Made by a program: the position numbers and the translations under genes. From Sanderia malayensis (lineage: Eukaryota > Cnidaria > Scyphozoa > Semaeostomeae > Pelagiidae): a stretch of 64,000 bases of DNA. Under the pieces are notes generated by a model. That model saw only the letters and a list, made by a program, of their open reading frames with translations. It made no database searches and had not been told where the DNA came from. Location: assembly GCA_013076295.1 (NCBI GenBank), contig RQOL01000699.1:5456001-5520000 (forward strand), read 5' to 3'. This document shows, piece after piece, positions 28,956 to 64,000 of the stretch. Position 1 is the first letter of the stretch; each line of letters begins with the position of its first letter.

Positions 28956-28959
28956 TTAA

Positions 28960-30671: not shown

Positions 30672-30697
30672 TTAAGGAGTTTGAAGAAGTTAATGCC

Positions 30698-33983: not shown

Positions 33984-34345
33984 ACTGCTCGTTGATTTCA
34001 AGATTGGCGAAGGAAGGAACTTGGGTTAGGGGTAAAACGAACAATGTTGATGTGGACATTTTTGTTGACACTGGGGAAAGGTATAATTTAATTGACTATA
34101 ATTTTTGGAATGAGGTTTGCATGGGTAGAAAATTTCGTGATACTTTAACTTCGCTTGTTGGAGCTGGCGGGAAGAATTTGGCTGTGATTGGTGAAGGGAA
34201 CGTTTCACTTTGCATAGGAGGAGCTTATTTTGATTTGTTTGTTGTTATTGTAGGTGATTTTAAGTTTCATTTGCTATTGGGAGATACATTTTTGAGAGAA
34301 GAAAATTTTGTTATTGTGAAAAAGTGTTGGGAACACATGGGGTAG
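33872..34345 (+). pseudogene. Gypsy aspartic protease region
   Basis: VDVDIFVDTGERYNLIDYNF holds the catalytic DTG at about 34057-34080, and [14 protein letters not shown] is the C-terminal flap/ILG-like end. It overlaps the gag end in another frame, as is common in Gypsy pol. The next frame (RT) overlaps at 34324. Confidence 0.7.
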
Positions 34346-35456
34346 AAGTTGGTTTTGAGCCTTTGCCTTCTGAATGTGTGGCTACGTTGAATTCTGTAGT
34401 TGAGCTACCCGTTGGGACACCCTTGCGTGTAAGAGCAGATTTGTCTGGTAATCATTGTGGATTGGTTTTGTTTGGGGAACGCCAGTTGGTCAAGACTGAC
34501 GAGCGTGTTTTAGTTGCCCCTGTCGTGACAAAAGCGGATGATGACAATTCTGTTTTACTCGAGCTGGTAAACACAACTCGCAACAAGGTTTCGTTGCAGC
34601 CTGGCACCAAAGTGATGCACCTACAGCCCTTTGACGCAATCGTGGACGACTCAGTTCAGACGATGTTTGAAGGACAACAGAACACCGCAGAAGTGGCCAT
34701 TGGAGATTTCAAGCTAGAACACCTTTCAGATGACGAGCAAGACGTTCAGAACATGCTGCTTTCTGAAGTCATCCAGCCATCCGCAAGTCCGTGGAGCAGT
34801 CCAGTCGTACTGATCAAAAAACCGAACGGGGAGTATCGTTTCTGCGTGGACTACCGACGACTAAATGCTGTGACCAAGAAAGACGCATACCCTCTGCCAG
34901 AATTGACGAGACTCTGGATGCTCTCGGAAACGCAAAAGTCTTTACGACCATTGACTTGTAGTCTGGATTCTGGCAAGTCCCCATGAAGCAAGAAGACCGA
35001 GAGAAGACGGCATTCGCGACACACAATGGCCATTACTCGTTCAATGTGATGTCTTTTCGATTAGCCAATGCTCCTGCGACTTTCCAGAGACTTATGGATT
35101 TGGTTCTATCTGGCCTTCATTGGACGCATTGCCTCGTGTACCTCGATGACATCATTGTCTTTGCTCCAACTGTGGAAGAACATCTAAAACGATTGGACGT
35201 AGTTTTGGACAGAATTGAAACAGCCGGACTCACTCTGAAACCAGCAAAATGTCAATGGCTAGGGCGATTGGGGAAGTTTCTTGGACACATTGTCCCTGAA
35301 GAAGGAGTGACCGTGGACCCAGCCAAAGTCAGCTCTGTTAAGAATTTTCCGATTCCTCAGAACAAGACAGATGTAAGACGTTTCCTTGGATTGACGGGTT
35401 ATTACAGAAGATTCATCACCAATTATGCAAGCCGATCCAAACCGCTGGTAGATTAA
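34324..35456 (+). pseudogene. Gypsy reverse transcriptase, frameshifted
   Basis: [20 protein letters not shown] and [18 protein letters not shown] give the finger motifs. A frame break near 34905 and an in-frame stop in the palm-A region follow. FRLANAPATFQRLMD, HCLVYLDDIIVFA (catalytic YLDD) and FLGLTGYYRRFITNYAS complete the domain in the frame 34983-35456. The enzyme would copy RNA to DNA, but the breaks make it inactive. Confidence 0.85.
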
Positions 35457-35501
35457 ACAAAGAAGAAACGCCTCTTTCAGCGGACAAAAGACGCCGACAA
35501 T

Positions 35502-35960
35502 GTGTTTCAAGAGCTGAAAAACTGTCTGATTTCTGCACCTGTTCTGCAATGCCCAGACGTCTCGCTACAGTTCAAGCTCTACACTGATGCTTGCGACTAT
35601 GGCCTGGGAGCAGTTCTCGCTCAAGAAACAGATGATGGTGAAGCAGTAATTGCTTACGCGAACCGAATATTGAAGCCATCTGAAGCCAAGTATGCTGTAT
35701 TGCAGAAAGAAGCCCTTGGTATTGTCTGGGCGTTGAAATACTTTTATCCTTATTTGTATGGCAGACATTTCACCATTGTTACCGACCATCACCCACTGAA
35801 ATGGCTGAGGACTATGGACGCTCCAAACAACCTCTTTGCGAGATGGATCAGTGAAATCCAAGGGTATGATTTTGACGTCATCAATCGGCCTGGAAAACTC
35901 CATGGAAACGCTGACGCTCTTTCCAGATGTCCAGTTCAATATGATCTTTTGGCGGTATGA
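35502..35960 (+). pseudogene. Gypsy RNase H
   Basis: LYTDACDYGLGAVLAQ, KYAVLQKEALGIVWALKYFY and FTIVTDHHPLKWLR are the RNase H core with D, E and D. GKLHGNADALSRCP is the conserved end. The domain itself is uninterrupted; a stop at about 35456 separates it from RT. Confidence 0.85.
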
Positions 35961-37326
35961 TGTCATCCAGCTACAGAAACAGGACGAATACGCCGGAAAA
36001 TGGATTGTCTTTTTGTCAGAAGGAGAGCTGCCATCTGACAAAGATGTAGCAAACAAGATGGTGAAAGAGAAAGAAAACTTTGTCGTTGGAGATGACGGAA
36101 TGCTGTACCGAAAGTGCAAGACCAAGACTGGCCATGCAAGAAGACAGCTTGTGGCGCCAAAGCTGCAGATTGGACAGATATTAATGCGGATGCACGACCA
36201 TCAGTTATCCGGACGTCCAGGTTTCTTCAGAACACCTCGAAAAGTACAACAGAAATACATTTGGCCGAAAATGAAGAGCAGCATCAAGAGACACATCCGG
36301 CACTGTGGAGAATGTGCGGAGTTCAAATCTCCAAAGCCGGCCGGAAAGAAACCTGTGAAATCTATTGTAACCTCAAGGCCATTGCAAATCGTGGCTATGG
36401 ATTTTGTCGGTCCCTTGCCAAAGTCTGACAGAGGAAATATGTATGCTCTGGTAATGGTAGATCATTTCAGTCGTTGGCCTGTCATGTATTCAGTGGACAA
36501 TATAGAAGCTGAAACTGTCACTGTAAAGTTGCAAGACTTCATTCACACCTATGGTTGCCCTGAAGAATTGTTGTCTGATAGAGGAAGTCATTTTACGGCC
36601 GAACTGATAAAAGCACTTACCAAGCAAACGGGGGTAAAGAAGATATATACGTGTGCATTTCGACCTTCAACCAATGGCCTAAATGAACATCTGAATGGTA
36701 CGCTATTTCAAGGAGTTAAGATGTATGTTTCGAAAAGGCCATCAACACGGGACCAGTATCCAGACGCGTTAGTATTCGCATACAGAACAATGCCTCATTC
36801 AGTGACACAACATACCCCAGCGTTTCTCATGTTTGGAAGAGAATTAAACTCACCACTGGATATGAAACCGCCTACAAGGCTATATACTGTTGATCCAGTG
36901 AAGAGTATGCAGAACGAACGCCAGTTGGCTTACGAAATTGTTAAAAACTTGGTTTCGAAAGAACAAGCACGTCAGAAAAAGCATCACGATAAAAACCTAC
37001 CAAAAGTTAAAGTTACTGTCGGTGAAAAAGTATGGCTTCGTGACTTCATTATAAAGAAAGGAACCTCGAAGAAGTTTCACCAGCCATGGAAAGAACCCTA
37101 CGAAGTTGTGAAGATCGTAGGAGAAAACAATGTCGAGATAAACATTGGCGGAACAAAGCGCGAGAAAACAAAAAGAGTTAATTTGGAACAGATCAAGAAA
37201 GCTAATGAAGCCGATGGAAGCCCAAGTGATATTGCAGAAGTAATGGACAAAATGCGTACCAGAATTCCTGGACAGAGACTCGTTACAAAATGTTTTGTGG
37301 AGTTTAATGATGGACATACACAATGA
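35836..37326 (+). CDS. Gypsy integrase, long uninterrupted frame
   Basis: The 496-codon frame contains an HHCC zinc domain (HDHQLSGRPGFFRTPRKV, IRHCGECAEF), then a DDE core (LQIVAMDFVGPLPKSDRGNM, ELLSDRGSHFTAELIK, GLNEHLNG) with all three acidic positions present, and a C-terminal GPY-like region (KKFHQPWKEPYEVVKI). Its real start is probably inside the frame, downstream of RNase H, because the first ~40 codons overlap RNase H in another frame. It catalyses insertion of element cDNA. It ends at a TGA at 37326, 150 bp before the LTR. Confidence 0.85.
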   Translation: MRDGSVKSKGMILTSSIGLENSMETLTLFPDVQFNMIFWRYDVIQLQKQDEYAGKWIVFLSEGELPSDKDVANKMVKEKENFVVGDDGMLYRKCKTKTGHARRQLVAPKLQIGQILMRMHDHQLSGRPGFFRTPRKVQQKYIWPKMKSSIKRHIRHCGECAEFKSPKPAGKKPVKSIVTSRPLQIVAMDFVGPLPKSDRGNMYALVMVDHFSRWPVMYSVDNIEAETVTVKLQDFIHTYGCPEELLSDRGSHFTAELIKALTKQTGVKKIYTCAFRPSTNGLNEHLNGTLFQGVKMYVSKRPSTRDQYPDALVFAYRTMPHSVTQHTPAFLMFGRELNSPLDMKPPTRLYTVDPVKSMQNERQLAYEIVKNLVSKEQARQKKHHDKNLPKVKVTVGEKVWLRDFIIKKGTSKKFHQPWKEPYEVVKIVGENNVEINIGGTKREKTKRVNLEQIKKANEADGSPSDIAEVMDKMRTRIPGQRLVTKCFVEFNDGHTQ

Positions 37327-40781: not shown

Positions 40782-42905
40782 TTAACCGCATACAATACAA
40801 GCATGGCATTTACAAGCCGGCCCGTTCCACTGTTTTATTTGTCTCTTGAAAGTTTGGACATTTTCGGCCAGTTTAAGTTCTTTTGGCAATGCATTCCAGA
40901 TTTGTGGTCCCAACGACAAGAGACTTTTCGAGCCAAATGTTACTTGGTTTGGTCTATGATGAATCAATTCTTTTGGATTCCTTGCTGACCTTGTTGTTTG
41001 TTTTAATTTAAAAATGTTTTGTATAAAAGGGGGATTCAGCTTTGCGACAGTTTTATAAATTTCAATACAAAGGGTTCTGAGACGGCTGATCCTCATTGTG
41101 CTTTTTCCTGCTTTTGAAAGTAAGGTGTCATACGAGCTTGTAGTGTCGTTAAAAAGAAATTTGAGAGCTCTTTCTTGGATCTTCTCAATTTTTTCAACAG
41201 ATTTCGCAGAGGAAAAATGCCATACTAAAGGGCAGTAATTAAAGTTCGAACATACAAAAATTTGGACCGATATCTTTTTGGCGTCAAAACCCATGTAACC
41301 CTGAAGTCTTTTTAATGCCTTTAGTTGTGCAGCGGCTTTTCTGCACAGATCGGAAATATGTTCATCAAAAGTTAGGTTGTGATCAATTTTTACCCCCAAT
41401 AGTTTTACTATGTTTTCAGATTTTATCTGCTTCCCATGTATGGTTATTGTTTTTCCGGTTGTGTCGTTCTTGCCTTTGCTAACAAGTAGGGCATGAAATT
41501 TATCTGGGTTCGCAATCATTTGGTTCCTTTCCAACCAGTCGATTGCGACATTTGATTCTTGTTCTAAGATTCTAATCAGATTTGGGAAGGAGTTTGAAAA
41601 AGCTGTCAAAGTGTTGTCATCTGCGTAATTATGCAGAGTTGCTTTCTTTATATAAAAAAATGTGGTACGAACTGGCTCACCCTTGTCTAAGGGGGTAACA
41701 GCAGCCCGCTTCCCCTTGTCTGGAAACTGACATTTCTTAAAACTATTATTTATTGCATTTGTTAGCGGTACCGCAAGTTCTCGAGAAGCTAAAAGCACTA
41801 GCTTAGGCGGAATTTGATCTTCCCCTGTTGACTTTTTGCTATCTACGTTTTTTAAAAACTTCATGACTTCATTCGATTCGACGGCACGAAATGAAAAGGT
41901 TGGAAAATCGTTTTTTGGATTTTGAATTATAGCTAAGATACTAGGATGGGTTGCATATTTTTCAAGAATCAATCTCACAATGTCTCTATCACTGGTTTGT
42001 TCATATCTGTCAGCTAGGCATTGTGGTTTTTTCCCACTTGATTTTTCGACTATATTAATGTAATGTTCGTTAAAAGTCTCAGCAAGCTCACGATCATCAG
42101 TAATGATCTTCTCGTCCTTTACAAGCAAAATGTCGTTCCCTGATAAGCCCCCTTTATTTGTCAGGAATGGTTTCACTAGATTCCAGAAATCTTTATTTGT
42201 CATTAACCCATTTTCCGTCACCTTGTTGAAATGAGATTTGATCGCCTTTTTTCTGAGAGAGACGCATTTATTCCTCTGCTTTTTGAAATTGAGCTCGTTT
42301 TCTCTGGAGGGGTTTTTCTTGAATTTTTTCTGTAGGCGAGATCTGTTATATATTTCTTTTCTCCATGTTTTATTCATAAAGGGTGCGTCGTTTCCCCTCA
42401 CAGTTTTGGTTCGCAGGGGGGCATGTTTATCTATGATTTTGTGAAACTTATTTTCTAAATCCTCATAGCAAAAATTTGGATCGTCTGAGAAACATACCAG
42501 GCTAGCATTTTTTACATCAGATAGAAAATTTTCAGTAGAGAACTTTTTGTAACTTCTATAAGTAATCTTCTTGGGCTTGAGTCGGGGAATGCAAGACTTC
42601 ATACATGTTGTGACCATAAGATGGCAGTCATTTAAACCGGTTTCAAAAGCAGATGTTTTTTGAAAGTTCCGTTTACGATTTGTAAGAATCACGTCTATGG
42701 AAGAACTATGATTACTTGTAAAGCAGGTTTTACCCCTCACTAAGTTTTCAAGATCAAAAACGTCGCAGAACTCTTTGAGGTTCTCGAAACCAGGGTGCCT
42801 ACGATTTTGCCAGTCTATATTTATGTCACCATAAATGATAACATTTTCGTACTTATCTAAAGCTTTATTCACGCAAGATGATAACTCTTGGAAGAATGCT
42901 GTCAT
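40782..42905 (-). CDS. LINE ORF2 with RT core deleted in frame
   Basis: A 707-codon open frame. VIIYGDINIDWQN and SSIDVILTNR are the end of the endonuclease (GDxN, SxxDxI). A linker follows, then FLKNVDSKKSTGEDQIPPKL and AAVTPLDKGEP (RT start). At that point the frame jumps directly to FFYIKKATLHNYADDNTLTA (the YADD motif region). In this LINE family roughly 130-160 residues, including the FxDxxxAFD palm-A motif and the SGVPQGSxLGP motif, normally lie between. The C-terminal thumb and CCH-like tail (CKCHACIVCG) are present. An in-frame deletion has therefore left an open but catalytically dead RT. Confidence 0.8.
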   Translation of the reverse strand: MTAFFQELSSCVNKALDKYENVIIYGDINIDWQNRRHPGFENLKEFCDVFDLENLVRGKTCFTSNHSSSIDVILTNRKRNFQKTSAFETGLNDCHLMVTTCMKSCIPRLKPKKITYRSYKKFSTENFLSDVKNASLVCFSDDPNFCYEDLENKFHKIIDKHAPLRTKTVRGNDAPFMNKTWRKEIYNRSRLQKKFKKNPSRENELNFKKQRNKCVSLRKKAIKSHFNKVTENGLMTNKDFWNLVKPFLTNKGGLSGNDILLVKDEKIITDDRELAETFNEHYINIVEKSSGKKPQCLADRYEQTSDRDIVRLILEKYATHPSILAIIQNPKNDFPTFSFRAVESNEVMKFLKNVDSKKSTGEDQIPPKLVLLASRELAVPLTNAINNSFKKCQFPDKGKRAAVTPLDKGEPVRTTFFYIKKATLHNYADDNTLTAFSNSFPNLIRILEQESNVAIDWLERNQMIANPDKFHALLVSKGKNDTTGKTITIHGKQIKSENIVKLLGVKIDHNLTFDEHISDLCRKAAAQLKALKRLQGYMGFDAKKISVQIFVCSNFNYCPLVWHFSSAKSVEKIEKIQERALKFLFNDTTSSYDTLLSKAGKSTMRISRLRTLCIEIYKTVAKLNPPFIQNIFKLKQTTRSARNPKELIHHRPNQVTFGSKSLLSLGPQIWNALPKELKLAENVQTFKRQIKQWNGPACKCHACIVCG

Positions 42906-44299: not shown

Positions 44300-44989
44300 C
44301 CTGTACATAGTTTGATTTTATTTATTGTTTTACAAGTTTTTGTGAAAAATAAAAAAAAAGAAATGTTTCGATCCAAATGTCCATCTTATTTTACAACAAT
44401 TGACCAATCAGCGCACTGCGAGAAAAATAAAAATTATAGGGGGGCGGGGGCAAAAATCCCGCTAGAAAATGTAAGAAAGTGATGTTTTTCCTGATTTCCT
44501 GCTGTCATCAATAATTTTACAAAAAAAAACCAAAAATTTTAACAATAGCAAAATAAACATTTTCACACATAAACATGACAACCAAAACATGCCAAAATGT
44601 CCCACCATTAACGTAAAATCAATCCTCTCTTTTTGAAAGTTAGCAAAGACCAATAAATATGCACAAACAATAAACAAAGCGTAATGACAAATTTGTTCCA
44701 AATCGATGTTTTGTATGGGCAAAATTATGGTTCTAAACATGGAATTTACTTGATGTTTGCTCTATTTATTCAATTACAATAATGATAATGAAATCAAGAC
44801 CACATCTCAACAGAATAGATTTTCATCTTAAACCCCGACCCAAGCGTTGCCGCAAACTGTATCAAAATAGTGAAAAAGTGAACCTAACGAACATTTCTCT
44901 CCAACCCACACAAATTTTGTATATATTTTATACCTAAAAGCATTTTATGCTTTTGGGCATAAAATATTTCGACTTTGATATATTTTGCA
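44300..44989. other. No gene recognised
   Basis: A-rich 3' tail-like sequence (AAAAATAAAAAAAAAG at about 44344) may be the 3' end of the split retroelement. The remaining DNA is AT-rich. Confidence 0.35.
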
Positions 44990-46092
44990 GTTTTCTGTCT
45001 TCTTTCTACGTGGACTCAAATTGCACTCGAATGAGAGCTTCGACAAACTTCAATTTTCGCATTCACTCATTGGCAGTCACCCTAAAACCATCTTTCTCTG
45101 TGGCGTGGCAAACTAATTTCAACATTTACAGCTGCATCTTGAACTGTAAAACCAGTGAAAGAGAGTTTCAAAAACTGGGTTACTTTAACTCAATTACAAA
45201 AGCAGCAACTAAAACAAACTCACAACACTTGTTCTCGAGCAAAAGTTTCTTCTGGTGTTTCGGATTTCCGCAGTTCTTCGTAGCTCGGCTCTTCAGTTAA
45301 CCCCACAATGAAACGCATGAATTTCTTTCATGTCAACATTATTGTAAATTCGAATAATTACAACCGACGATTACTCGTGACGCGGTCACTCAAGAGACAC
45401 TTCAAAATTATTAAAGATTACAGTTGCAAGTAAAAGTTCAGCATTAAAGTCAAAAATTAAAGTTAAAAAGAGGAATGATGAAGATGAACTAAATTTTAGG
45501 ACTTTAATATCTACCAAATAAGGATCAATGTTGACAGTAAAAAACTTAACAAATGAAAATAAATCGGTAAACTGAGCACATGAGAAATTACATAAATATG
45601 AAATCAAAGTTTAACTAAAAATCATCATGAAATAAGGGTTTAAAGATTCAAAGTTCATTTGATGATAATAAAAAATTATTACTAAATGCAATCCAGTGAA
45701 TTCAGTTCAATGCTTATGACGATATTTTTATTGTTGATGTTGTTGTTGTCTATTTCCAATCTTTCACAACAGAACCTTTCGCAAATGTTTCAAAAGAAAC
45801 ACTGGAGGAAGAAGATAAACGCCGCCTGCATAGTCCATCTTTGATAAGACGATGAATTCAAAGGCTTCTTTTTTATTGGAATGGCGCAGGAGTTTTCTTA
45901 CACCAATTAGATTACAGCAATGATCTCGCTGGAAGCTTTTTCAACAATCTTTAGAACTGGACTTTAGCTTAGAAAGCTTAGAAAGCTGTGAAGCTATGAA
46001 AGTTGCTTTGCACTCACAACCATTGTTTTCTTTGAGTTGAGAGCAATGTTTTTTGACTGAAAGCCAAGAGCTCAACCATCAATGTCAATTTG

Positions 46093-46138
46093 GTACTTTA
46101 CTGTCTGACAAGAAGACTCTTGTTTGACAGTAAAGTAC
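46093..46138. repeat. Hairpin with 21-bp arms
   Basis: GTACTTTACTGTCTGACAAG pairs with the reverse complement of CTTGTTTGACAGTAAAGTAC with two mismatches around a loop of about 5 nt. It is absent from copy A of the surrounding repeat. A miRNA-like precursor, a MITE relic or a regulatory RNA are all possible. Confidence 0.7.
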
Positions 46139-47284
46139 TGTCTAAATTGCAAAATGAGATTCTTAACAGCTGTACGCATATCTCAACATGTGTATATTTA
46201 TATGCGTTACTTCTCATGATGTCTCCACCGCAGATAAGCACATTCTTCAATCCATTTAAGATAATGGCAATTGAGGATCATTGAAAATTTGTAAAACTAT
46301 GTTGTTAGATCGAGTATTGTTTGCCTGTAGCTCTCGTACAGTTGTAAACAAAATTCTCCCTATTTGCCACGTGACCACCTTTCTGCATCTCAAATGGCAT
46401 CATGCTTTAGTTGGACAGAGTCCTTTCCATTCCCTGCTTCCTGCGACTGACAACGGTCTTCTCCACTAGGGCTGATGTGTCATCTGAACTGCTTGTCTTG
46501 AAAAATACGAGTTGCGAAGTAATTCGTGACGTGTCTCGTATAAAAGAGCATGTCAATAATCATGGTAAATGTCTCTGTTCGGAAGCAAACATCTCCGACT
46601 TACTGCCAACTGCTCTCCAGTGTCCAAATGCATTGTTTATGTATGCCGTTCAGTCAGTTCAAAGTCGAATCTGAATGTCATACTGCAACATGTTCGTTAA
46701 AACTAAAATATTATTACATAAACGTATTTCAATAAAATCAATTTAAATGAATAATGTGCTACTCGATTGGGCTCAGTGGACCACATAAATTTCGCAAGTG
46801 TAGACTACACTTAAATCAATACTAAGAAATACGAAAGGGTTGCAAATACGATATTTAAACGAATGCCCTAAATATGCTTACGGTGAATGAAATAACAGAT
46901 AAGACAATATAATATAGGATATAATATATTGTCAATATAACAAAAGAGCTCAATATTATAAGAGAAGCTGCAGAATATAGAAAACAAGTGTTCACCGTCT
47001 TGTTATTGCACCATACCCAGAAACCTAAAGTGACGGTGAAACCTTGTCATCTTTGGTCTGGTTTCTAAAGTAACAAAATTTAATTACTCTCAACAAACGC
47101 TAACCTACAAAGGGTACGCCAACCTACTTTGTCAAATTAAGCAACTTATTTAGGTCATAAACGCATAAAATATAAGCTTCACTAGCTGCACGCTGTTAAC
47201 AGTCACACCAATCTTATAGAGGCAACGGGGTCATAAGCATAACAAAAATTTAAAATAACTAAAAGATTCAAATAGTTAATAAAT

Positions 47285-47327
47285 GCTACGAAAAGCTTCA
47301 CTTCCATTTAAAAGTGAAGCATTTCGT
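47285..47327. repeat. Hairpin with 18-bp arms
   Basis: CTACGAAAAGCTTCACTT and AAGTGAAGCATTTCGTAG are inverted with one mismatch, loop CCATTTAA or similar. Not found in copy A. Confidence 0.7.
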
Positions 47328-47602
47328 AGTTAAATCGGATCTGTTAAAAAACATATCCTACCAAGAAAGTTCTTGCTAAGATAAGATTCTCAACAGCTGT
47401 ATTTCCCTCTTTTTAAGTGATTGCTATATGTGTCACCCCTGTAAATGTTATGGCAGCGCCAGAAAAACTAAAATATTGCTTAAGCGCTGGAAACATTATC
47501 AGAGACTTTTAATTTTCTTGTGTCTCTTGTGTGATACGATTTACTTTAAAAGTTTCCTAAATTTCCGGTGCAAAAAATAACATATTTCGAAGTTGAGCCT
47601 AT

Positions 47603-47819
47603 TAGATAGGTGCACGGGCATAATTTATCGAATATCGAAGGGGAATATAGCTGATGGTGTTTTTCTGGTGTGAAATTTGATGCTCTTTCCGAATCTGCTT
47701 GTCCCCAAACGATTTAGTGGTGGGTGTGGCAGGGCGTGGTCAAAAAAAATTTCCTATTTTTTTTTCAAAATACCAACGGAAAATCGAGATTTATGAATAA
47801 ATATACCTTATTTATTGTC
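47603..47819 (+). repeat. Left terminal inverted repeat, 217 bp
   Basis: Pairs with 53194-53410 with a single difference noticed. It contains short T-runs and A-runs (CCTATTTTTTTTTCAAAAT) conserved in both copies, which normally drift quickly, supporting recent origin. Confidence 0.92.
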
Positions 47820-48218
47820 CATTGTGCTGTGTTTCCGTGTAAAATGAAATAAAACAATCAAATATATCCCATTGCCGTCAATTTTATTTTTTAAAATGCA
47901 CCTCAAAAATAGCTCTTTCGACACGCTTTTGGTCAAAGAATTCCGTGAATATCTACATCCGGGTAAAATAAACAATTACGGTGTGTGGCAGAATAAAACT
48001 ATCCTGGTGGTCTTGGTGTATAGCTGCAGTAAAAGTTGAACATGTGGCCTAAGGTAGGTTGAATCTTTAATCAATTTTCAATCACGTTAAATCAAAATCG
48101 TTTAACCTCAAATTCTTCGCAATTGAAATTGAATATTCACATCTAGATAACAAATATCGCATATTTCCTCCTCTGCGGGAACGCATCTCTTCATTTACTC
48201 GTTTCAGGTGGATTTTTA

Positions 48219-50115
48219 ATGGATCTACCATCAGCAACACCGTTTGCTTCCTTAAAAACAGCTGACCAGTCGGTTCTGTGCTGCTTATGTAAAGAAAGGA
48301 TTCGCAAATCTGAAAAAAGTCAGGTCTTCAAGGAAAAAGGGTAAGATACGAATGCATTTTGCTTTTCTACCCTGTTGGCGTTCATCCTGTAAATGGGGAC
48401 TTATTGACTGTTTTTCTTTTCACAGTTGGGAATCGATAAGAGAAAAGGCGTTACAGTGGAAATGTGTCACAAGTCCAAGATCATATGCTCTAAATTTTCC
48501 GTATGCACATGACACTCTGAAGCAGCATTTTACGTCAAAAGCCAACAATGAATTGAAATGCCACACACAATGTCGCAAGCATTTCGGAGATAGCACGAAA
48601 TTGCAAGCTAACCTCAGTGATTCTGCTCCTGGATTTGACGAGGAACCCATGTTGACTGAGAATGAAGAGCAGAGCCAAGCATCAAATCTTCCTAGTACTT
48701 CAGAGTGCCCAGCAACACGTAGTAAAGTGGATCATTTACCAGCACCAAGTGATCATAACAGGAAATGTTTTGTCTGCAACAAAGGCAGAAAGAAACTACG
48801 TGGACATGAGGAGACGCTGATGAAGCTTCAAGAGCCAAGAGCGGAGGCAAAATTGATCAGTGTTCTGGATGAAAATAAGCATTCAGATGACCCCATTCTT
48901 CAAAGTGCCGCAAAACGATTGCAGATTCATCAAGCAGGTGGAGGAGACCTCTTCGCAAGAGAGTTGGACTACCACAAAAGTTGCTATAAGTTTTTCACAA
49001 GATCCCGCACAGTGAATATTGAAACTGATGTTCCTTTTGAAACGATGAATGCACATTGTGCAGAGGAAGAGTTCTTGAAGATAATCGAAGTTAAAGTTAT
49101 TAGCGAAAAGTGCTGCTACTTTCTTGTTGATCTCCTTGAAGATCTGCAAAGTCTTTATGATTTCCACGTGGTACCGATTGAGGGAGCATCTCGCAAAACA
49201 TTTGCAAGCCAAGTAAAGGACATGATATTGAGAAAGTTCGAAGGCAAAGTCGATTTTGCAAGAGCTTCAGGTGTTCGGGGGTCAGGCAATATTCTTCACT
49301 CAGTGGATGTTAATCCGCTTGATTACTCATTGGCAACTTTGCAAGGAGCAGGCTTAAGAGATGATGACATCACTAAAGCATTTGCAAATATGATTAACAG
49401 AAAGGTTAAGTGCCTAAAGCAAAAGCAGCTTGCTGAAGGTCAGGTTAGGAATGAACAAATTTCATTTGATGAATTAGTCGCACAGCTTGATGAGCATGAA
49501 CCCCTACAGCAAATCTACAATGCAATTGGCTTGTCACTGCATCCTTCTGCAAAGAAAAATGAGCACGGATATGTTGTCCTTTCATCTTTGCAAGCAAACA
49601 AGGTCTGGTCGATTGCTGGAACATGGCAGCAGTTGTTAACAGGGGAATTTTCATCAACATCCTTGGCATTAGGGATGGTTATTCATAGAGTGACAGGGAG
49701 CAAAGAAACAATCAACCTCCTAAGTAAAGTTGGAATCACTCCTAGCTACACAACCATTCGCGAGACTAACAAGAAATGGGCAAAGGACACAACTGAAGAA
49801 TTGCAGAAAAGAGTAGCCCCCATTTGCATGGAACCATTCAAGCCAACACACATTACACTAGACAATAATGATGGGCGACAAATGACTTTAACAGGTGTTG
49901 GAACGACTCATGACACTACCGGCACAATTAACCAACCAACACTGCCTGGCGAAGAACACCATTCACTTTTTTATCCTTTAGAAGGACAGACAAGAGCTGT
50001 TCGAAATTCAGAAGATGTTTGTTACGACGAATTTAGGATTGGAAAACCAAAGGCCCCGCCTACTATTAAGGCATATGATTGCAATGATGATAAAAAGAAA
50101 TTGATCACAGACTAA
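48219..50115 (+). CDS. Transposon protein A: two zinc fingers and first catalytic Asp
   Basis: The start is the ATG at 48219: exon 1 (48219-48340) ends at AAAAAGG|GTAAGA and joins exon 2 at 48426 (TTTTCACAG|TTGGG), giving FKEKG-WESIREKALQW. This beats the ATG inside the intron at 48352. The product is 603 residues. Finger 1 uses C21xxC24 and H87xxC90; finger 2 uses C155xxC158 and H224xxC227. The region around 380-500 is helical (FDELVAQLDEHEPLQQIYNA, ALGMVIHRVTGSKETINLLS). THITLDNNDGRQ (D520) is the likely first Asp of an RNase-H-fold transposase core. The protein stops at TAA 50113-50115 before the second and third catalytic residues, which lie in the next frame. It presumably binds the TIRs. 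Related two-finger proteins are common but mostly uncharacterised in invertebrate genomes. Confidence 0.8.
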
Positions 50116-50147
50116 GCAAGGATTGCGCTTGGGCTTTAGCTGCGATG
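50085..50147 (+). promoter_or_regulatory. A/B gene junction, candidate -1 frameshift zone
   Basis: The B frame is open upstream of its ATG back to about 50097, where it meets TGATAA, so the A and B frames overlap by about 20 nt around GATAAAAAGAAATTGATC. A -1 shift in this A-rich stretch would fuse A and B. T-AAA-AAG is close to, but not, the canonical A-AAA-AAG slippery heptamer. A good acceptor-like GGGCTTTAG lies just before the B ATG, but no strong donor was seen at the end of A. Reinitiation, frameshift, cryptic splicing or a mutation are all open. Confidence 0.45.
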
Positions 50148-53129
50148 GCAACACAAACTCTCTCACAAGACACCGAAACTCCACAGGAAGATAGTATGGT
50201 GCCAGAATCGTCTCCTAGTCAGGGTAGCACAGTATCATGTAATAATTCAATCGGATCGTGGACTGCCTTTAACAAGAAAGCAACATCGGTAGCGACAACA
50301 AAGTCGCGCAATGAGTATCTTCCCACCATATCACATCCTCCAGATGACAAAATCTGCAAATACTACTTGGATTATATTCTGGATATGGCTGGCAGTCTTC
50401 ACCTGGAACATATATTTGTGCACTGTGACCAAGCAGTCTTCTACAAAATGTCTCAGATAATGTGGAAAGAGTGTGATAAATACAAGAAAGTGATTTGTTT
50501 GATGGGTGGCTTTCATACCCTTCTGGTTTGGTTAAAAGTTCTGCATAAGCAGTTTGGTTGCTTGGGATTTCGAGACTGGTGGTGTGAATCGGGAATAATC
50601 GCAGAAGGGTCAGTTGATCAGGCAGCAGAAGGCCGGCACTATTCTCGGTCTATGCGCCTTCATAAACAATCACTGGAAGCATTACTAAGATTCAAAGGAT
50701 CTGAAGTTGAAGTATCAAGGGAGCTTGCGGAAGTAGCTAAAGCACTTGCATCATCAGTATCTCCAACTTCATTGGAAGCTGTTTTATCTCACCCAAACTT
50801 TAAAACCTGGAAAAATGAGATTCTTAAGTGTTCTGGAACAATGGGCACATTTTTGCTAAAGTACATATTCGAAGTAAGTACAATGCTTTCATTTGTCGTC
50901 AGTTTCAGAGAGAAGAATATGGAGCTCCATCTAGAAGCATTGCAGCAATTGGTTCCACTGCTTTTTGCTTTCAATCATCAAAATTACGCTCGGTACTTGA
51001 CATACAGCCACATCATGCTTTCAAATATGAAAACCGAAAATCCAAATGCTTTTGATGATCTTGCAAAATATGGTCCTGGAGTTAGCCTTAGTGGCGAAGC
51101 TTTCTCGAGCATCCCTGGAGATTTAGTTACAGAGATTGGTCCTAATCGTGAAAGCAAAGTACGCGGTGGTCCTATGAGCGGTGGCTACAGCACTTCCCCA
51201 GAAGCCGTGGACACTTTTTACAAAAACTCCCATAAGTTAGCTAAATTAAGATTATTGACAAAGGAGCGATTTAGAATAAAAACCTCTAATGTCCATAATG
51301 AAACAACGACTGGCGCAAAGTTTAAGCACGAAAAGCAAGTGATGAACTTGATCGAGAAGTTGCGCACATACTCGTACCCATTCGCAGGGCCAGCACGCAC
51401 CCTTTCAACTGGAATTGAAATTAGTCCGGAAATAGTAACAGGACTTCTTGAAGCAAAGTCTGCTGGTAAGGAAATGCATCGACATTTCTACTCGGATCGT
51501 CTGCTCTCTTCTGAAGTTGGTTTCTTTGAGCCTATTGAGAGAAGCAAAATTAAAACTGGCCTAGAAAAGAAACAGAAACCTGCAAAGGCCTTATCAGTCC
51601 TAAAAGAAGATCGGCAAGCACTTGGTCTTATTGTTTCACAATGCCACGATAAAAGAGAAGCATTTTCTTATTGTCTCACTAAATATCCTCTTGCAATAGC
51701 AACTCCCGACGGAAAGTTGTATCAACCAGGATCTAAAGCAGCATTCAGAAATAATCTCATTGACCAAGCTGAGGCAACCATCGAATCTCCACCTCTTCGA
51801 GCGACAACAATTTATGACGGTATGGCAGTAATCAGGGCTTCAAAGCCCACCACAACATGGGGTCAGTACATGGCAAATCAATTGAAAGCATTCACACCTC
51901 CTTCATCATGGTATGTACAGGAAACTGTCATAGTATTCGATAACTATATTGACGACCAAGAGTACTCGATCAAAGATGCTGAGAGACAAGAAAGAGGTTG
52001 TAGCGCAAGGGTTCATTTGGGTACTAATGAACAAAAAATGATGAATGGTAAAGACTTTCAAATGTTTATGCACAACAAAGAGAATAAAGACGAGCTCATC
52101 AAGCGATTCGTTGAATTTACCTGTCTGCTAGAAACACGGTCCAATTTCAATGTTCCTTGCACAGTCAATCATAGGAACACAACACTGACTGTCACTCCAT
52201 CAAATGTGGCTAAATTGTTTGATTGTAATCACGAGGAAGCTGATACTCGTGTAGTATTGCATGCATTCTTATCTGATGGTCCAGTGATCATCAAAGCTAA
52301 GGACACGGATATCCTCATTCTTATGATATATGCCTTTGCAGTAAAACAACCGCAGTCGGAATGGTGTATGCAAGTTGACCATGATAAATTCATCAGCATC
52401 GGAAAGATCGTGCAGTTCCTTGGCATTTCCACAGCCCTGTTGTTACCTGCCTTTCATGCTCTAACCGGCTGCGACACCACTAGTTATTTTTATCGGATTT
52501 CAAAGAAATCAGTTTTTGACAGGGCAGTGAAACAAAAGTCGTTGCCCCTTCTCGAAAAATTGGGAGATGAAAAATCTCTTCATGCAGATTGGGAACGTGA
52601 CATCACTAACTTTATTCATAAAACAATATACAATGGCAAAGAAAACGACGACCTAGTCACTACACGAATCAACGAATACGACAAGCTAAGGGTAAAAACA
52701 ACGCAAAGTATTATTCCTGATCCTGGAAGCTTGAAGTATCTGATCGAAAGGGCCAATTTGGCCACATACTATCTGAAACATTTCAGTTTACCAGTCGTCG
52801 AAAAGGTCAGTGTTTCTGAAAGCGGCTGGATAAGAGAAGAAACTGGCCATCTGCTACCTTTGTGGTACCATGGGCCACAAATGCCCCGATTAGTGCGAAA
52901 GAGAAAGTCGGGAAAAAGAAAGAAGTCTGCAAAAAGCGCTAGTTTTTCAGTGATGGACACGAGTGAGACCTCAGATGCTACAGATAGCGATGATGAGTTG
53001 ACGGGAAAGACTGTTTTTACAGAGCATAGAATCTGTCCTGATGACAAGGGCGACTATGACTGGCTGTACTCGAGCTCTGAAGAAGATTGTGCTGCGTATG
53101 ACAGTGATGACGATGAATATATACCTTAA
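50145..53129 (+). CDS. Transposon protein B: transposase core remainder plus FEN/XPG-like nuclease
   Basis: 994 residues, no breaks. HIFVHCDQAVFYK (D95), LMGGFHTLLVWLKVLHKQFG (121-140) and WWCESGIIAEGSVDQAAEGR (E148/E154) fit the second Asp and Glu of a DDE core. After about 550 the layout matches flap-endonuclease/XPG enzymes: IYDGMAVIRAS (D558, like D34 of human FEN1), VIVFDNYIDDQEYSIKDAER (D599, like D86), HEEADTRVVLH (E698/D700, like E158/E160), KDTDILIL (D720/D722, like D179/D181) and HALTGCDTTS (D777, like D233). Spacings of 20 and 55 residues between the last three clusters are close to FEN1. The tail is acidic (SDDEL, SSEEDCAAYDSDDDEYIP) after a basic RKRKSGKRKKSAK, a probable nuclear signal. 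Frame is -1 relative to protein A. Confidence 0.85.
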   Translation: MATQTLSQDTETPQEDSMVPESSPSQGSTVSCNNSIGSWTAFNKKATSVATTKSRNEYLPTISHPPDDKICKYYLDYILDMAGSLHLEHIFVHCDQAVFYKMSQIMWKECDKYKKVICLMGGFHTLLVWLKVLHKQFGCLGFRDWWCESGIIAEGSVDQAAEGRHYSRSMRLHKQSLEALLRFKGSEVEVSRELAEVAKALASSVSPTSLEAVLSHPNFKTWKNEILKCSGTMGTFLLKYIFEVSTMLSFVVSFREKNMELHLEALQQLVPLLFAFNHQNYARYLTYSHIMLSNMKTENPNAFDDLAKYGPGVSLSGEAFSSIPGDLVTEIGPNRESKVRGGPMSGGYSTSPEAVDTFYKNSHKLAKLRLLTKERFRIKTSNVHNETTTGAKFKHEKQVMNLIEKLRTYSYPFAGPARTLSTGIEISPEIVTGLLEAKSAGKEMHRHFYSDRLLSSEVGFFEPIERSKIKTGLEKKQKPAKALSVLKEDRQALGLIVSQCHDKREAFSYCLTKYPLAIATPDGKLYQPGSKAAFRNNLIDQAEATIESPPLRATTIYDGMAVIRASKPTTTWGQYMANQLKAFTPPSSWYVQETVIVFDNYIDDQEYSIKDAERQERGCSARVHLGTNEQKMMNGKDFQMFMHNKENKDELIKRFVEFTCLLETRSNFNVPCTVNHRNTTLTVTPSNVAKLFDCNHEEADTRVVLHAFLSDGPVIIKAKDTDILILMIYAFAVKQPQSEWCMQVDHDKFISIGKIVQFLGISTALLLPAFHALTGCDTTSYFYRISKKSVFDRAVKQKSLPLLEKLGDEKSLHADWERDITNFIHKTIYNGKENDDLVTTRINEYDKLRVKTTQSIIPDPGSLKYLIERANLATYYLKHFSLPVVEKVSVSESGWIREETGHLLPLWYHGPQMPRLVRKRKSGKRKKSAKSASFSVMDTSETSDATDSDDELTGKTVFTEHRICPDDKGDYDWLYSSSEEDCAAYDSDDDEYIP

Positions 53130-53193
53130 TTGGTTAGAGAATATCATGGTTTAGTGTTATCCTCAGGAAATTTATCTAACAAAAGCACTAAGT

Positions 53194-53410
53194 GACAATA
53201 AATAAGGTATATTTATTCATAAATCTCGATTTTCCGTTGGTATTTTGAAAAAAAAATAGGAAATTTTTTTTGACCACGCCCTGCCACACCCACCACTAAA
53301 TCGTTTGGGGACAAGCAGATTCGGAAAGAGCATCAAATTTCACACCAGAAAAACACCATCAGCTATATTCCCCTTCGATATTCGATAAATTATGCCCGTG
53401 CACCTGTCTA
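53194..53410 (-). repeat. Right terminal inverted repeat, 217 bp
   Basis: Inverted copy of the left end; begins 65 bp after the stop codon of the second gene. Confidence 0.92.
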
Positions 53411-53415
53411 TATGT

Positions 53416-53522
53416 TCAGATGCATAAAAAATGAAAAGGTCATCTTTTCATTTTTCATGCATCTGAACAAGTTTATCATCTTTTGGGAACATGCAATTCT
53501 CTTGCATGCTGGCAAAAGATGC
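53416..53522. repeat. Two adjacent hairpins at the transposon's right edge
   Basis: The first hairpin has 25-bp arms: GTTCAGATGCATAAAAAATG plus AAAAG against the inverted copy ending GCATCTGAAC, one mismatch, 5-nt loop GTCAT. The second (about 53477-53522) pairs CATCTTTTG with CAAAAGATG and, inside it, CATGCAA with TTGCATG. Both start within a few bases of the target duplication. Confidence 0.75.
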
Positions 53523-57585: not shown

Positions 57586-57685
57586 NNNNNNNNNNNNNNN
57601 NNNNNNNNNNNNNNNNNNNNNNNNNNNNNNNNNNNNNNNNNNNNNNNNNNNNNNNNNNNNNNNNNNNNNNNNNNNNNNNNNNNNN
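57586..57685. other. Assembly gap (100 N)
   Basis: Exactly 100 N, the conventional placeholder for a gap of unknown size. It lies at the left edge of the satellite, so the array is probably longer than shown. Confidence 0.99.
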
Positions 57686-58140
57686 CACTGAAAACAAGCA
57701 AATGCAAGTGTAATTTACTTAGTTCCAGCTGTAATAACGTGGATTCATATGCAATTGGTGTGCAGTAATGTTAATATCAATGAAAACAAGCAAATGCATT
57801 TGTATTTTACTTAGTTTCAGCTGTAATAACGTGGATTCATGTCCAATTAGTGTGCAGTAATGTTAATATCACTGAAAGAAAGCAAAAGCATGTGTAATTT
57901 ACTTAGTTTCAGCTGTAATAACGTGGATTCATGTGCAATTAGTGTGCATTAATGTTAATATCACTGAAAACAAGCAAATGCATTGTATTTACTGTTTCAG
58001 CTGTAATAACGTGGATTCATGTTCAATTAGTGTGCAGTAATGTTAATATCACTGAAAACAAGCAAATGCATGTGTAATTTACTTAGTTTCAGCTGTAATA
58101 ACGTGGATTCATGTGCAATTAGTGTGCAGTAATGTTAATA

Positions 58141-58242
58141 TTCGGCATTTTGTGGGCTGCAACCATGGGCAAACTGCACTTCTGGTTGCTGCCAAATCTC
58201 ACTGCTGATTGTGGGTTTTTCGAATCATTTATGCGCAACCAA
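58141..58242. repeat. Foreign ~102-bp segment in satellite, copy 1
   Basis: TTCGGCATTTTGTGGGCTGC through TTATGCGCAACCAAAA replaces the CACTGAAAACAAGC part of one unit. It has no resemblance to the satellite. Same junctions in all three copies. Confidence 0.9.
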
Positions 58243-60056
58243 AAATGCATTTGTATTTTACTTAGTTTCAGCTGTAATAACGTGGATTCATGTGCAATTA
58301 TTGTGCAGTAATGTTAATATCACTGAAAACAATCAAATGTATGTGTAATTTACTTAGTTTCAGCTGTAATAACGTGGATTCATGTGCAATTAGTGTGCAG
58401 TAATGTTAATATCATTGAAAACAAGCAAATGCATGTGTAATTTAGTTAGTATCAGCTGTAATAACGTGGATTCATGTGCAATTAGTGTGCATTAATGTTA
58501 ATATCACTGAAAACAAGCAAATGCATGTGTAATTTACTTAGTTTCAGCTGTAATAACGTGGATTCATATGCAATTAGTGTGCAGTAATTGTTAATATCAC
58601 TGAAACAAGCAAATGCATTTGTATTTTACATAGTTTCAGCTGTAATAACGTGGATTCATGTGCAATTAGTGTGCAGTAATGTTAATATCACTGAAAACAA
58701 GCAAATGCATGTGTATTTTACTTAGTTTCAGCTGTAATAACGTGGATTCATGTGCAATTAGTGTGCAATAATGTTAATATCACTGAAAACAAGCAAATGC
58801 ATTTGTATTTTACTTAGTTTCAGTTGTAATAACGTGGATTCATGTGCAATTAGGGCAGTAATGTTAATATCACTGAAAACAGGCAAATGCATGTGCATTT
58901 TACTTAGTTTCAGCTGTAATAACGTGGATTCATGTGCAATTAGTGTGCAGTAATGTTAATATCACTGAAAACAAGCAAATGCAAGTGTAATTTACTTAGT
59001 TCCAGCTGTAATAACGTGGATTCATGCAATTGGTGTGCAGTAATGTTAATATCAATGAAAACAAGCAAATGCATTTGTATTTCACTTAGTTTCAGCTGTA
59101 ATAACGTGGATTCATGTCCAATTAGTGTGCAGTAATGTTAATATCACTGAAAATAAGCAAATGCATGTGTAATTTACTTAGTTTCAGCTGTAATAACGTG
59201 GATTCATGTGCAATTAGTGTGCATTAATGTTAATATCACTGAAAACAAGCAAATGCATGTGTAATTTACTGGGTTTCAGCTGTAATAACTTGGATTCATG
59301 TTCAATTAGTGTGGAGTAATGTTAATATCACTGAAAGCAAATGCATGTGCATTTTACTTAGTTTGAGCTGTAATAACGTGTATTCATGTGCAATTAGTGT
59401 GCAGTAAGGTCAATTTCACTGAAAACAAGCAAATTCAATTTGTATTTTACTTAGTTTAGTTGTAATAACGTGGATTCATGTTGCAATTAGTCTCCAGTAA
59501 TGTTAATATCACTGAAATCAAGCAAATGCATGTGTATTTTACTTAGTTTCAGCTGTAATAACGTGGATTCGTGTGAAATTAGTGTGCAGTAATATTAATG
59601 TCACTGAAAACAAGCAAATGCATGTGCATTTTACTTAGTTTCAACTGTCATAACGTGATTCATGTGCAATTAGTGTGCAGTAATGTTAATGTCATTGAAA
59701 ACAAGCAAATGCATGTGTAATTTAGTTAGTATGAGCTGTAATAACGTGGATTCATGTGCAATTATTGTGCATTAATGTTAATATCACTGAAAACAAGCAA
59801 ATGCATGTGTAATTTACTTAGTTTCAGCTGTAATAACGGGGATTCATATGCAATTAGTGTGCAGTAATGTTAATATCACTGAAAACAAGCAAATGCATTT
59901 GTATTTACTTTTTCAGCTGTAATAACATGGATTCATGTGCAATTAGTGTGCAGTAATGTTAATATCACCGAAAACAAGCAAATGCATCTGTAATTTACTT
60001 AGTTTCAGCTGCAATAACGTGGATTCATATGCAATTAGTGTGCAGTAATGTTAATA

Positions 60057-60158
60057 TTCGGCATTTTGTGGGCTGCAACCATGGGCAAACTGCACTTCTG
60101 GTTGCTGCCAAATCTCACTGCTGATTGTGGGTTTTTCGAATCATTTATGCGCCACCAA
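60057..60158. repeat. Foreign ~102-bp segment in satellite, copy 2
   Basis: Near-identical to copy 1 (CGCCACC for CGCAACC), 1916 bp downstream of it, with the same satellite junctions. Confidence 0.9.
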
Positions 60159-62992
60159 AAATGCATTTGTATTTTACTTAGTTTCAGCTGTAATAACGTG
60201 GATTCATGTGCAATTATTGTGCAGTAATGTTAATATCACTGAAAACAAGCAAATGCATGTGTAATTTACTTAGTTTCAGCTGTAATAACGTGGATTCATG
60301 TGCAATTAGTGTGCAGTAATGTTAATATCATTGAAAACAAGCAAATGCATGTGTAATTTAGTTAGTATCAGCTGTAATAACGTGGATTCATGTGCAATTA
60401 GTGTGCATTAATGTTAATATCACTGAAAACAAGCAAATGCATGTGTAATTTACTTAGTTTCAGCTGTAATAACGTGGATTCATATGCAATTAGTGTGCAG
60501 TATTGTTAATATCACTGCAAACAAGCAAATGCATTTGTATTTTACATAGTTTCAGCTGTAATAACGTGGATTCATGTGCAATTAGTGTGCAATAATGTTA
60601 ATATCACTGAAAACAAGCAAATGCATTTGTATTTACTTAGTTTCAGTTGTAATAACGTGGATTCATGTGCAATTAGGTGCAGTAATGTTAATATCACTGA
60701 AAACAAGCAAATGCATGTGCATTTTACTTAGTTTCAGCTGTAATAACGTGGATTCATGTGCAATTAGTGTGCAGTAATGTTAATATCACTGAAAACAAGC
60801 AAATGCAAGTGTAATTTACTTAGTTCCAGCTGTAATAACGTGGATTCATATGCAATTGGTGTGCAGTAATGTTAATATCAATGAAAACAAGCAAATGCAT
60901 TTGTATTTTACTTAGTTTCAGCTGTAATAACGTGGATTCATGTCCAATTAGTGTGCAGTAATGTTAATATCAATGAAAATAAGCAAATGCATGTGTAATT
61001 TACTTAGTTTCAGCTGTAATAACGTGGATTCATGTGCAATTAGTGTGCATTAATGTTAGTATCACTGAAAACAAGCAAATGCATGTGTAATTTACTTAGT
61101 TTCAGCTGTAATAACTTGGATTCATGTTCAATTAGTGTGGAGTAATGTTAATATCACTGAAAACAAGCAAATGCATGTGCATTTTACTTAGTTTCAACTG
61201 TCATAAAGTGATTCATGTGCAATTAGTGTGCAGTAATGTTAATATCACTGAAAACAAGCAAATGCATGTGTATTTTACTTAGTTTCAGCTGTAATAACGT
61301 GGATTCATGTGCAATTAGTGTGCAATAATGTTAATATCACTAAAAACAAGCAAATGCATTTGTATTTTACTTAGTTTCAGTTGTAATAACGTGGATTCAT
61401 GTGCAATTAGGGTGCAGTAATGTTAATATCACTGAAAACAAGCAAATGCATGTGCATTTTACTTAGTTTCAGCTGTAATAACGTAGATTCATGTGCAATT
61501 AGTGTGCAGTAATGTTAATATCACTGAAAACAAGCAAATGCATGTGTAATTTACTTAGTTTCAGCTGTAATAACGTGGATTTATATGCAATTGGTGTGCA
61601 GTAATGTTAATATCAATGAAAACAAGCAAATCCATTTGTATTTTACTTAGTTTCAGCTGTAATAACGTGGATTCATGTCCAATTAGTGTGCAGTAATGTT
61701 AATATCACTGAAAATAAGCAAATGCATGTGTAATTTACTTAGTTTCAGCTGTAATAACGTGGATTCATGTGCAACTAGTGTGCAGTAATGTTAATATTAC
61801 TGAAAACAAGCAAATGCATTTGTATTTTACTTAGTTTCAGTTGTAATAACGTGGCTTCGTGTGCAATTTGTGTGCAGTAATGTTAATATCACTGAAAACA
61901 AGCAAATTCATGTGCATTTTACTTAGTTTCAGCTGTAATAACGTGGCTTCGTGTGCAATTTGTGTGCAGTAATGTTAATAACACTGAAAACAAGCAAATG
62001 CATTTGTATTTTACTTAGTTTCAGTTGTAATAACGTGGATTCATGTGCAATTAGTGTGCAGAAATGTTAATATCACTGAAAACAAGCAAATGCATTTGTA
62101 TTTTACTCAGTTGCAGCCGTAATAACGTGGATTCATGTGCAATTAGGGTGCAGTAATGTTAATATCACTGAAAACAAGCAAATTCATGTGCATTTAACTT
62201 TGTTTCAGGTGTAATAACGTGGATTCATGTGCAATTTGTGTGCAGTAATGTTAATATCACTGAAAACAAGCAAATGCATTTGTATTTTACTTAGTTTCAG
62301 TTGTAATAACGTGGATTCATGTGCAATTAGTGTGCAGTAATGTTAATATCACTGAAAACAAGCAAATGCATTTGTATTTTACTCAGTTGCAGCCGTAATA
62401 ACGTGGATTCATGTGCAATTAGGGTGCAGTAATGTTAATATCACTGAAAACAAGCAAATTCATGTGCATTTAACTTTGTTTCAGGTGTAATAACGTGGAT
62501 TCATGTGCAATTAGGGTGCAGTAATGTTAATATCACTGAAAAGAAGCAAATGCATGTGCATTTTACTTAGTTTCAGCTGTAATAACGTGGATTCATGTGC
62601 AATTAGTGTGCAGTAATGTTATTATCACTGAAAACAAACAAATGCATTTGTATTTTACTTTGTTTCAGCTGTAATAACGTGGATTCATGTCCAATTAGTG
62701 TGCAGTAATGTTAATATCACTGAAAGAAAGCAAATGCATGTGTAATTTACTTAGTTTCAGCTGTAATAACGTGGATTCATGTGCAATTAGTGTGCATTAA
62801 TGTTAATATCACTGAAAACAAGCAAATGCATGTGTAATTTACTGGGTTTCAGCTGTAATAACTTGGATTCATGTTCAATTAGTGTGGAGTAATGTTAATA
62901 TCACTGAAAACAAGCAAATGCATGTGCATTTTACTTAGTTTGAGCTGTAACAACGTGGATGCATGTGCAATTAGTGCACAGTAATGTTAATA

Positions 62993-63094
62993 TTCGGCAT
63001 TTTGTGGGCTGCAACCATGGGCAAACTGCACTTCTGGTTGCTGCCAAATCTCACTGCTGATTGTGGGTTTTTCGAATCATTTATGCGCATCCAA
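62993..63094. repeat. Foreign ~102-bp segment in satellite, copy 3
   Basis: Near-identical (CGCATCC), 2936 bp downstream of copy 2, same junctions. The flanking units (TTATTGTGCAG just after) also match those of copies 1 and 2. Confidence 0.9.
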
Positions 63095-64000
63095 AAATGC
63101 ATTTGTATTTTACTTAGTCTCAGCTGTAATAACGTGGATTCATGTGCAATTATTGTGCAGTAATGTTAATATCACTGAAAACAAGCAAATGTATGTGTAA
63201 TTTACTTAGTTTCAGCTGTAATAACGTGGATTCATGTGCAATTAGTGTGCAGTAATGTTAATATCATTGAAAACAAGCAAATGCATGTGTAATTTAGTTA
63301 GTATCAGCTGAATAACGTGGATTCATGTGCAATTAGTGTGCATTAATGTTAATATCACTGAAAACAAGCAAATGCGAGTGTAATTTACTTAGTTTCAGCT
63401 GTAATAACGTGGATTCATATGCAATTAGTGTGCAGTATTGTTAATATCACTGAAACAAGCAAATGCATTGTATTTTACATAGTTTCAGCTGTAATAACGT
63501 GGATTCATGTGCAATTAGTGTGCAGTAATGTTAATATCACTGAAAACAAGCAAATGCATGTGTATTTTACTTAGTTTCAGCTGTAATAACGTGGATTCAT
63601 GTGCAATTAGTGTGCAGTAATGTTAATATCACTGAAAACAAGCAAATGCATTTGTATTTTACTTAGTTTCAGCTGTAATAACGTGGATTCATGTGCAATT
63701 AGGTGCAGTAATGTTAATATCACTGAAAACAAGCAAATGCATGTGTTTTTACTTAGTTTCAGCTGTAATAACGTGGATTCATGTGCAATTAGTGTGCAGT
63801 AATGTTAATATCACTGAAAACAAGCAAATGCAGTGTAATTTACTTAGCTTCAGCTGTAATAACGTGGATTCATGTGCAATTGGTGTGCAGTAATGTTAAT
63901 ATCACTGAAAACAAGCAAATGCATCTGTATTTTACTTAGTTTCAGCTGTAATAACGTGGATTCATGTGCAATTAGTGTGCAGTAATGTTAATATCACTGA

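Follow-up and report, generated by a model that had tools for sequence, protein, structure and literature searches.

A young AcademX-like DNA transposon of Sanderia malayensis with a probable two-nuclease protein

Introduction

Some eukaryotic transposons carry a further nuclease in addition to their transposase, which raises the question of what this extra enzyme is for. The question comes up again with a stretch of 64,000 nucleotides from the scyphozoan Sanderia malayensis (assembly GCA_013076295.1, contig RQOL01000699.1, positions 5,456,001 to 5,520,000 of the forward strand), called the window here, in which a first-pass annotation had described a DNA transposon of recent origin whose DDE-like (Asp-Asp-Glu) core is joined to a FEN/XPG nuclease. 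Further copies, unoccupied sites and conserved residues now support this description. In all probability, the locus holds a young AcademX-like eukaryotic DNA transposon, most likely of the cut-and-paste type, which encodes one two-nuclease protein with a role of the FEN part on the 5' strand. The family is very young, its copies are near-identical (one sister copy is open over its whole length), its insertion sites have unoccupied relatives and the genome is rich in related elements, which makes the question of the second nuclease testable.

A recent insertion with sister copies and unoccupied sites

The mobile element is 5808 bp long (window 47603–53410) and is bounded by a pair of terminal inverted repeats (TIRs) of 217 bp, the left one on the plus strand at 47603–47819, starting TAGATAGGTGC, and the right one on the minus strand at 53194–53410, finishing CCTGTCTA. 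Their single mismatch, at TIR position 5, is a T/C difference common to all three full-length copies (the window copy and copies B and C) and is thus a feature of the family. On either side lies the target-site duplication (TSD) TAT, at 47600–47602 and 53411–53413. A near-perfect inverted repeat (53414–53470) adjoins the right TSD; it belongs to the target DNA and is also found at the unoccupied relatives.

The whole 184-Mb assembly of 918 contigs was searched with the left TIR, which gave at least 40 matches (the best 40 of 49 candidates), among them both ends of two further full-length copies and many less alike ends. Over 5809 alignment columns, copy B (C479:860510–866318) is 99.98% and copy C (C479:323502–329309) 99.93% identical to the window copy, and only four element columns vary in this set, two of them by a substitution and two by a length difference of one base. 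An unoccupied relative was found for each of the three insertions. The window flanks, joined without the element, match C824:48409–48707 with 98% identity over 299 of 300 bases and a single TAT at the junction; contig C824 matches the window at 96–98% on both sides of the insertion and is either the other haplotype or a duplicate of the window locus. For copy C, the joined flanks match contig C155 with 100% identity over 300 of 300 bases (among the best 40 of 1569 candidates). Copy B sits in a repeat, and its joined flanks match at least 23 places with 96–99% identity over at least 299 of 300 bases. These unoccupied relatives could be sites that were never occupied. Many TIR differences and a lack of further copies or empty sites had been named beforehand as results that would speak against a transposon; the search for them yielded the opposite, namely one TIR difference, further copies and empty sites.

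Two observations concern the surroundings of the insertion. Within C824:46500–50500, about 0.74 kb without a match replaces 2.5 kb of the window (44927–47413). Window 45150–47602 is a repeat, and 12 other places match at least 1.9 kb of it at 82–88%.

TSD length was counted at the 14 of 20 loci that have both ends (L017–L022, with one end only, were excluded) and was 3 bp in 12 and 4 bp in L013; L016 has none. Two far relatives in the same genome, on contigs C571 and C787, have 42–43% protein identity, TIRs of 310 bp (96%) and 327 bp (99%), respectively, both with TAGACAGG ends, and the target duplications AAA and TTA. Pooled over 16 elements with both ends, the TSD is 3 bp in 14, 4 bp in one and absent in one. 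With its TIRs, near-constant TSD length and precise unoccupied sites, the family bears the marks expected of DDE/RNase-H transposases.

One protein split by a frame change

The first-pass annotation had listed frames of 603 and 994 codons with a spliced first exon. These are present, but they are not two separate frames. On the plus strand, the 603-codon frame joins exon 1 (48219–48340, with the ATG and a CxxC pair) to the first part of exon 2 (48426–50112), which codes for a Cys/His-rich N-terminal part and the start of the transposase core. The 85-bp intron GTAAG...CACAG between them (48341–48425) was read from the sequence, and the public gene model P0004 splices alike, joining both flanking exons. 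The 994-codon frame (50145–53126) begins at the ATG at 50145, with reading open from 50094, and the second part of the same protein (50094–53129, plus strand, stop included) comprises the remaining transposase core and the FEN-type nuclease. Both frames overlap at 50094–50112, the region of a one-base frame change. Copy B runs through this overlap uninterrupted, with 1624 codons, and copy C is also continuous there, with a frame change of its own elsewhere, near the 3' end. Copy B was aligned with those 47 of the 120 homologues listed that reach 1330 residues or more, and a single chain holds conserved residues from both halves. Because copies B and C and the 47 long homologues are continuous, the two long frames are parts of one protein that is split in the window copy by a one-base frame change. 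A two-gene element is ruled out by the same continuity.

Contrary to the earlier view that it is intact, the young window copy is thus broken in the assembled sequence, and in this form it would be mobile only with protein from a sister copy. A serious possibility, though not quite an even one, is that the frame change is an assembly error and the true locus is open, which would be compatible with the explanation favoured here. The other two copies are continuous at the overlap and nearly identical elsewhere, as expected for such an error, but the separate frame change of copy C makes real decay plausible too. Public gene model P0004 has the two coding differences of copy C and P0002 matches the window copy, so both models seem to come from the same species as the window.

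It had also been claimed that an intact copy stands out from its surroundings. This may hold within the window, but not in the genome, where a search for members (at least 50 matches; the best 46 of 1046 first-look candidates) found several long open members, among them frames of 1624, 1607, 1557 and 1551 codons that no stop interrupts. A lone intact survivor is ruled out by these members.

Transposase core and nuclease

The catalytic DDE triad of the core is strongly conserved. The first Asp (in LDNNDG, 49861–49863, plus strand) and the Glu (in DLVTEIGPNRE, 51132–51134, plus strand) are found in 48 of 48 aligned long proteins and the second Asp (in HCDQA, 50427–50429, plus strand) in 98% of the 48. 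In models of homologues, the second Asp directly follows a strand and the Glu lies in a helix past a helical insertion, so that the three conserved acidic residues are correctly placed in an RNase-H fold predicted on the homologue. Of the solved structures compared, those of the P-element transposase of Drosophila and the hAT transposase Hermes came closest to the core model. A GxxH motif, with Gly in at least 90% and His in 48 of 48 long proteins, separates the second Asp from the Glu.

The FEN/EXO1/XPG-type nuclease domain lies at about 51732–52802 on the plus strand, limits that were transferred from residues 781–1137 of a homologue model. Seven conserved acidic codons, placed by alignment of the long homologues, start at 51816, 51939, 52236, 52242, 52302, 52308 and 52473 on the same strand. 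The fold predicted on the homologue, together with these seven metal-binding acidic residues, agrees with what defines FEN1/XPG nucleases, and the best structural match was Exo1. With Foldseek, neither of the two models gave a match at E≤0.001, and no chain was matched in a sequence search of the PDB. A Pfam scan of both window frames, in which a hit to a host gene family was sought, matched nothing at all.

In relatives, Pfam DUF6589 (PF20231) matches part of the core; the match passes the cut-off in P0016 but falls short of it in P0012 and P0044. This domain may be a transposase domain, a meaning suggested by the structural link of the core to P-element and hAT; a literature search for DUF6589 found nothing.

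Relatives and selection

From 170 proteins, those with at least 900 residues, the GCD motif and enough sequence past it were taken for a tree, which together with open reading frame 2 (ORF2) made 65 rows. In this quick maximum-likelihood tree (LG+G4, SH-aLRT support only), the window protein falls into a clade of 15 with a support of 100 and a long stem. A C-terminal tail with at least eight cysteines (CxC...CxC) follows the GCDT motif in 44 of the 65 rows (relatives P0044 onward), and 21 of 63 rows show a stricter cysteine pattern. The tail is absent from all 15 members of the window clade, including ORF2, and also from six further rows outside it, so that the trait takes four changes on the tree and fits it untidily. 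Some relatives are publicly labelled 'Tesmin/TSO1-like CXC domain-containing'. Most listed proteins are nameless; the named relatives come from beetles, a thrips, a sea urchin, a sea cucumber, corals, sea anemones and an eel, and two stand under bacterial metagenome labels, which are probably contamination.

Five comparisons were made of the proportions of non-synonymous (pN) and synonymous (pS) differences, with synonymous sites near saturation. For copy B and the C686 subfamily, compared over 1542 codons at 64% protein identity, pN was 0.233 and pS 0.752; the comparison with L024 (63%) gave 0.244 and 0.761, respectively. The three comparisons at 38–39% identity gave a pN of 0.44–0.45 and a pS of 0.72–0.76. 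In all five, synonymous change exceeds amino-acid change, which points to constraint at the protein level.

Fold-back satellites

Five loci (L012–L016, on contigs C777, C551, C469, C405 and C303) hold fold-back elements of 3.16–3.5 kb, whose two inverted arms each measure about 1.25 kb and are interrupted in L013. All but some 0.1 kb of the arm sequence matches element positions 4664–5808, which cover the right TIR and the part of the gene that encodes the nuclease end. Their outer 850 bases are 93–94% like the window family, and by this likeness the arms derive from a sibling family. Within one copy, the two arms are 99.2–99.9% alike (97.3% in L016), and arms of different copies have a mean of 98.1% (40 comparisons, 96.7–99.2), with same-side pairs equal to cross-side pairs. 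In four of the five fold-backs, the two arms thus resemble each other more closely than the between-copy average, and side has no effect, a pattern suggesting that arms are equalised copy by copy. Four of the five copies have their own TSDs. The remaining one, L016, has no TSD and less similar arms, and the 10 bases displayed of its left flank equal those of L017; it may be a chimera or a duplicate. If transcribed through, a fold-back would yield a long hairpin RNA.

Possible mechanism and alternative explanations

In the mechanism considered most probable, the single protein of about 1,600 residues would bind the TAGAYAGG... terminal repeats, presumably via its Cys/His-rich N-terminal part. 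The RNase-H core would release the 3' ends of the element and join them to the target at a stagger of 3 bp, occasionally 4 bp, as the conserved DDE residues and the TSDs suggest. The opposite strand is the most likely substrate of the FEN/EXO1-type nuclease, which would cut or trim the 5' ends there, either during release of the element, in the manner of TnsA in its partnership with TnsB, or once strand transfer has left them as 5' flaps. All these reaction steps are inferred; the parts, their conservation and the genomic products were observed, and both folds were predicted on a homologue.

The same element might be at work with its FEN-type domain serving repair of the donor gap, copying or host DNA structures instead of its own ends. 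This has an appreciable chance of being true, roughly one in three. FEN, EXO1 and XPG are nucleases of repair and replication, and Exo1 was the best structural match. On the other hand, nuclease and core share one chain with the acidic residues kept in 47 long homologues, so the nuclease is probably used at each jump, and the portion seen of PMC10045372 ties the encoded enzyme to TSD length.

A bolder version of the two-nuclease explanation, held only tentatively, is a self-contained transposase in which a P-element-like DDE core handles the 3' strands and the fused FEN/EXO1-type nuclease must cut or trim the 5' strands. It would be a one-protein eukaryotic counterpart of TnsA-TnsB, independent of host flap-processing enzymes, and the fold-back satellites would both exploit this machinery and potentially give rise to hairpin RNA directed against it.

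Unlikely is a separate superfamily with a nuclease, in which the likeness to AcademX is limited to TSD length and the presence of a nuclease. A Cys8 zinc finger is part of the original Academ description, and the window clade is devoid of the cysteine-rich tail, possibly this finger, of most other relatives examined; the likeness to AcademX is one of traits. Against this, TSDs of 3–4 bp and a nuclease are AcademX traits in what was available of PMC10045372, and the mean length of curated bivalve Academ families in PMC10294476 (5565 bp) is close to 5808 bp.

A domesticated host gene or a segmental duplication lying between repeats by chance has next to no chance of being true. Public gene models (P0002 and P0004) do lie over such copies, but the reading is contradicted by the TIRs and TSDs, by the differing flanks of the three near-identical copies and by the unoccupied sites. 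A phage or viral origin was rejected, with no megablast match in phage records and the core model unmatched at E≤0.001 in a viral structure library.

Other features of the window

A second TIR element at 28956–30675 has 137-bp TIRs that are 99% complementary, 1446 bp between them and the ends TTAAAGGG; it gave no BLAST match to the loci of the transposon family. Broken retrotransposon frames with reverse transcriptase and integrase domains in a Ty3/gypsy-like order lie at 32846–37326, and a long LINE-like frame with an endonuclease-reverse transcriptase type domain at 40782–42905 on the minus strand. Towards the window end, an array of a satellite unit of about 92 bp occupies 57650–64000.

Comparison with known systems

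The AcademX nuclease is of the XPG type, and the element described here shares with AcademX an element-encoded nuclease. The TSDs, for which the first-pass annotation had given a length of 3–4 bp in Academ-type elements, agree as well: the portion available of PMC10045372 gives 3 or 4 bp for AcademX and 9 or 10 bp for AcademH, tied to the encoded nuclease or helicase, and the TSD is 3 bp in the window element and 3 or 4 bp in 15 of 16 elements overall. No helicase was found in the Pfam scan of both frames, a scan without any match. Curated bivalve Academ families have a similar average length, according to the excerpt from PMC10294476. The window clade of 15 is without the C-terminal cysteine-rich (CXC-like) tail found in 44 of the 65 tree rows. 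Families of the kind described here may already be in Repbase. Among the titles and abstract beginnings of literature naming Academ, none dealt with the mechanism of its transposition, and none of the hits for Academ 'DNA transposon' with XPG concerned Academ transposons, judged by title.

P and hAT elements have TSDs of 8 bp. With these transposases, the homologue models share the RNase-H core and a long insertion, helical throughout, that precedes the final Glu, whereas the window element has 3-bp TSDs and the extra FEN-type nuclease. The available part of PMC10045372 gives a C/DxxH motif for P, hAT, Kolobok, MuDR and Dada; the GxxH motif here stands at the corresponding place but has Gly instead of Cys or Asp as the first residue. 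From the FEN1/EXO1/XPG superfamily, the window nuclease differs in lacking a sequence-level PDB match and in lying within a transposon protein.

In Tn7, TnsA is restriction-enzyme-like, and TnsA and TnsB divide the strands between them. Two different nucleases in one transposition reaction are the common point, as an analogy only, with the bacterial system made of two proteins and the FEN-type nuclease here fused into a single one; the accessible part of PMC8188705 describes a heteromeric TnsA-TnsB transposase that cuts both strands at each end. The fold-backs finally resemble Mu killer of maize, which, according to the part available of PMC3440606, consists of a portion of an autonomous transposon in inverted, duplicated form. 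In contrast to Mu killer, the inverted form in S. malayensis is itself a multi-copy element, with its own TSDs in four of five copies.
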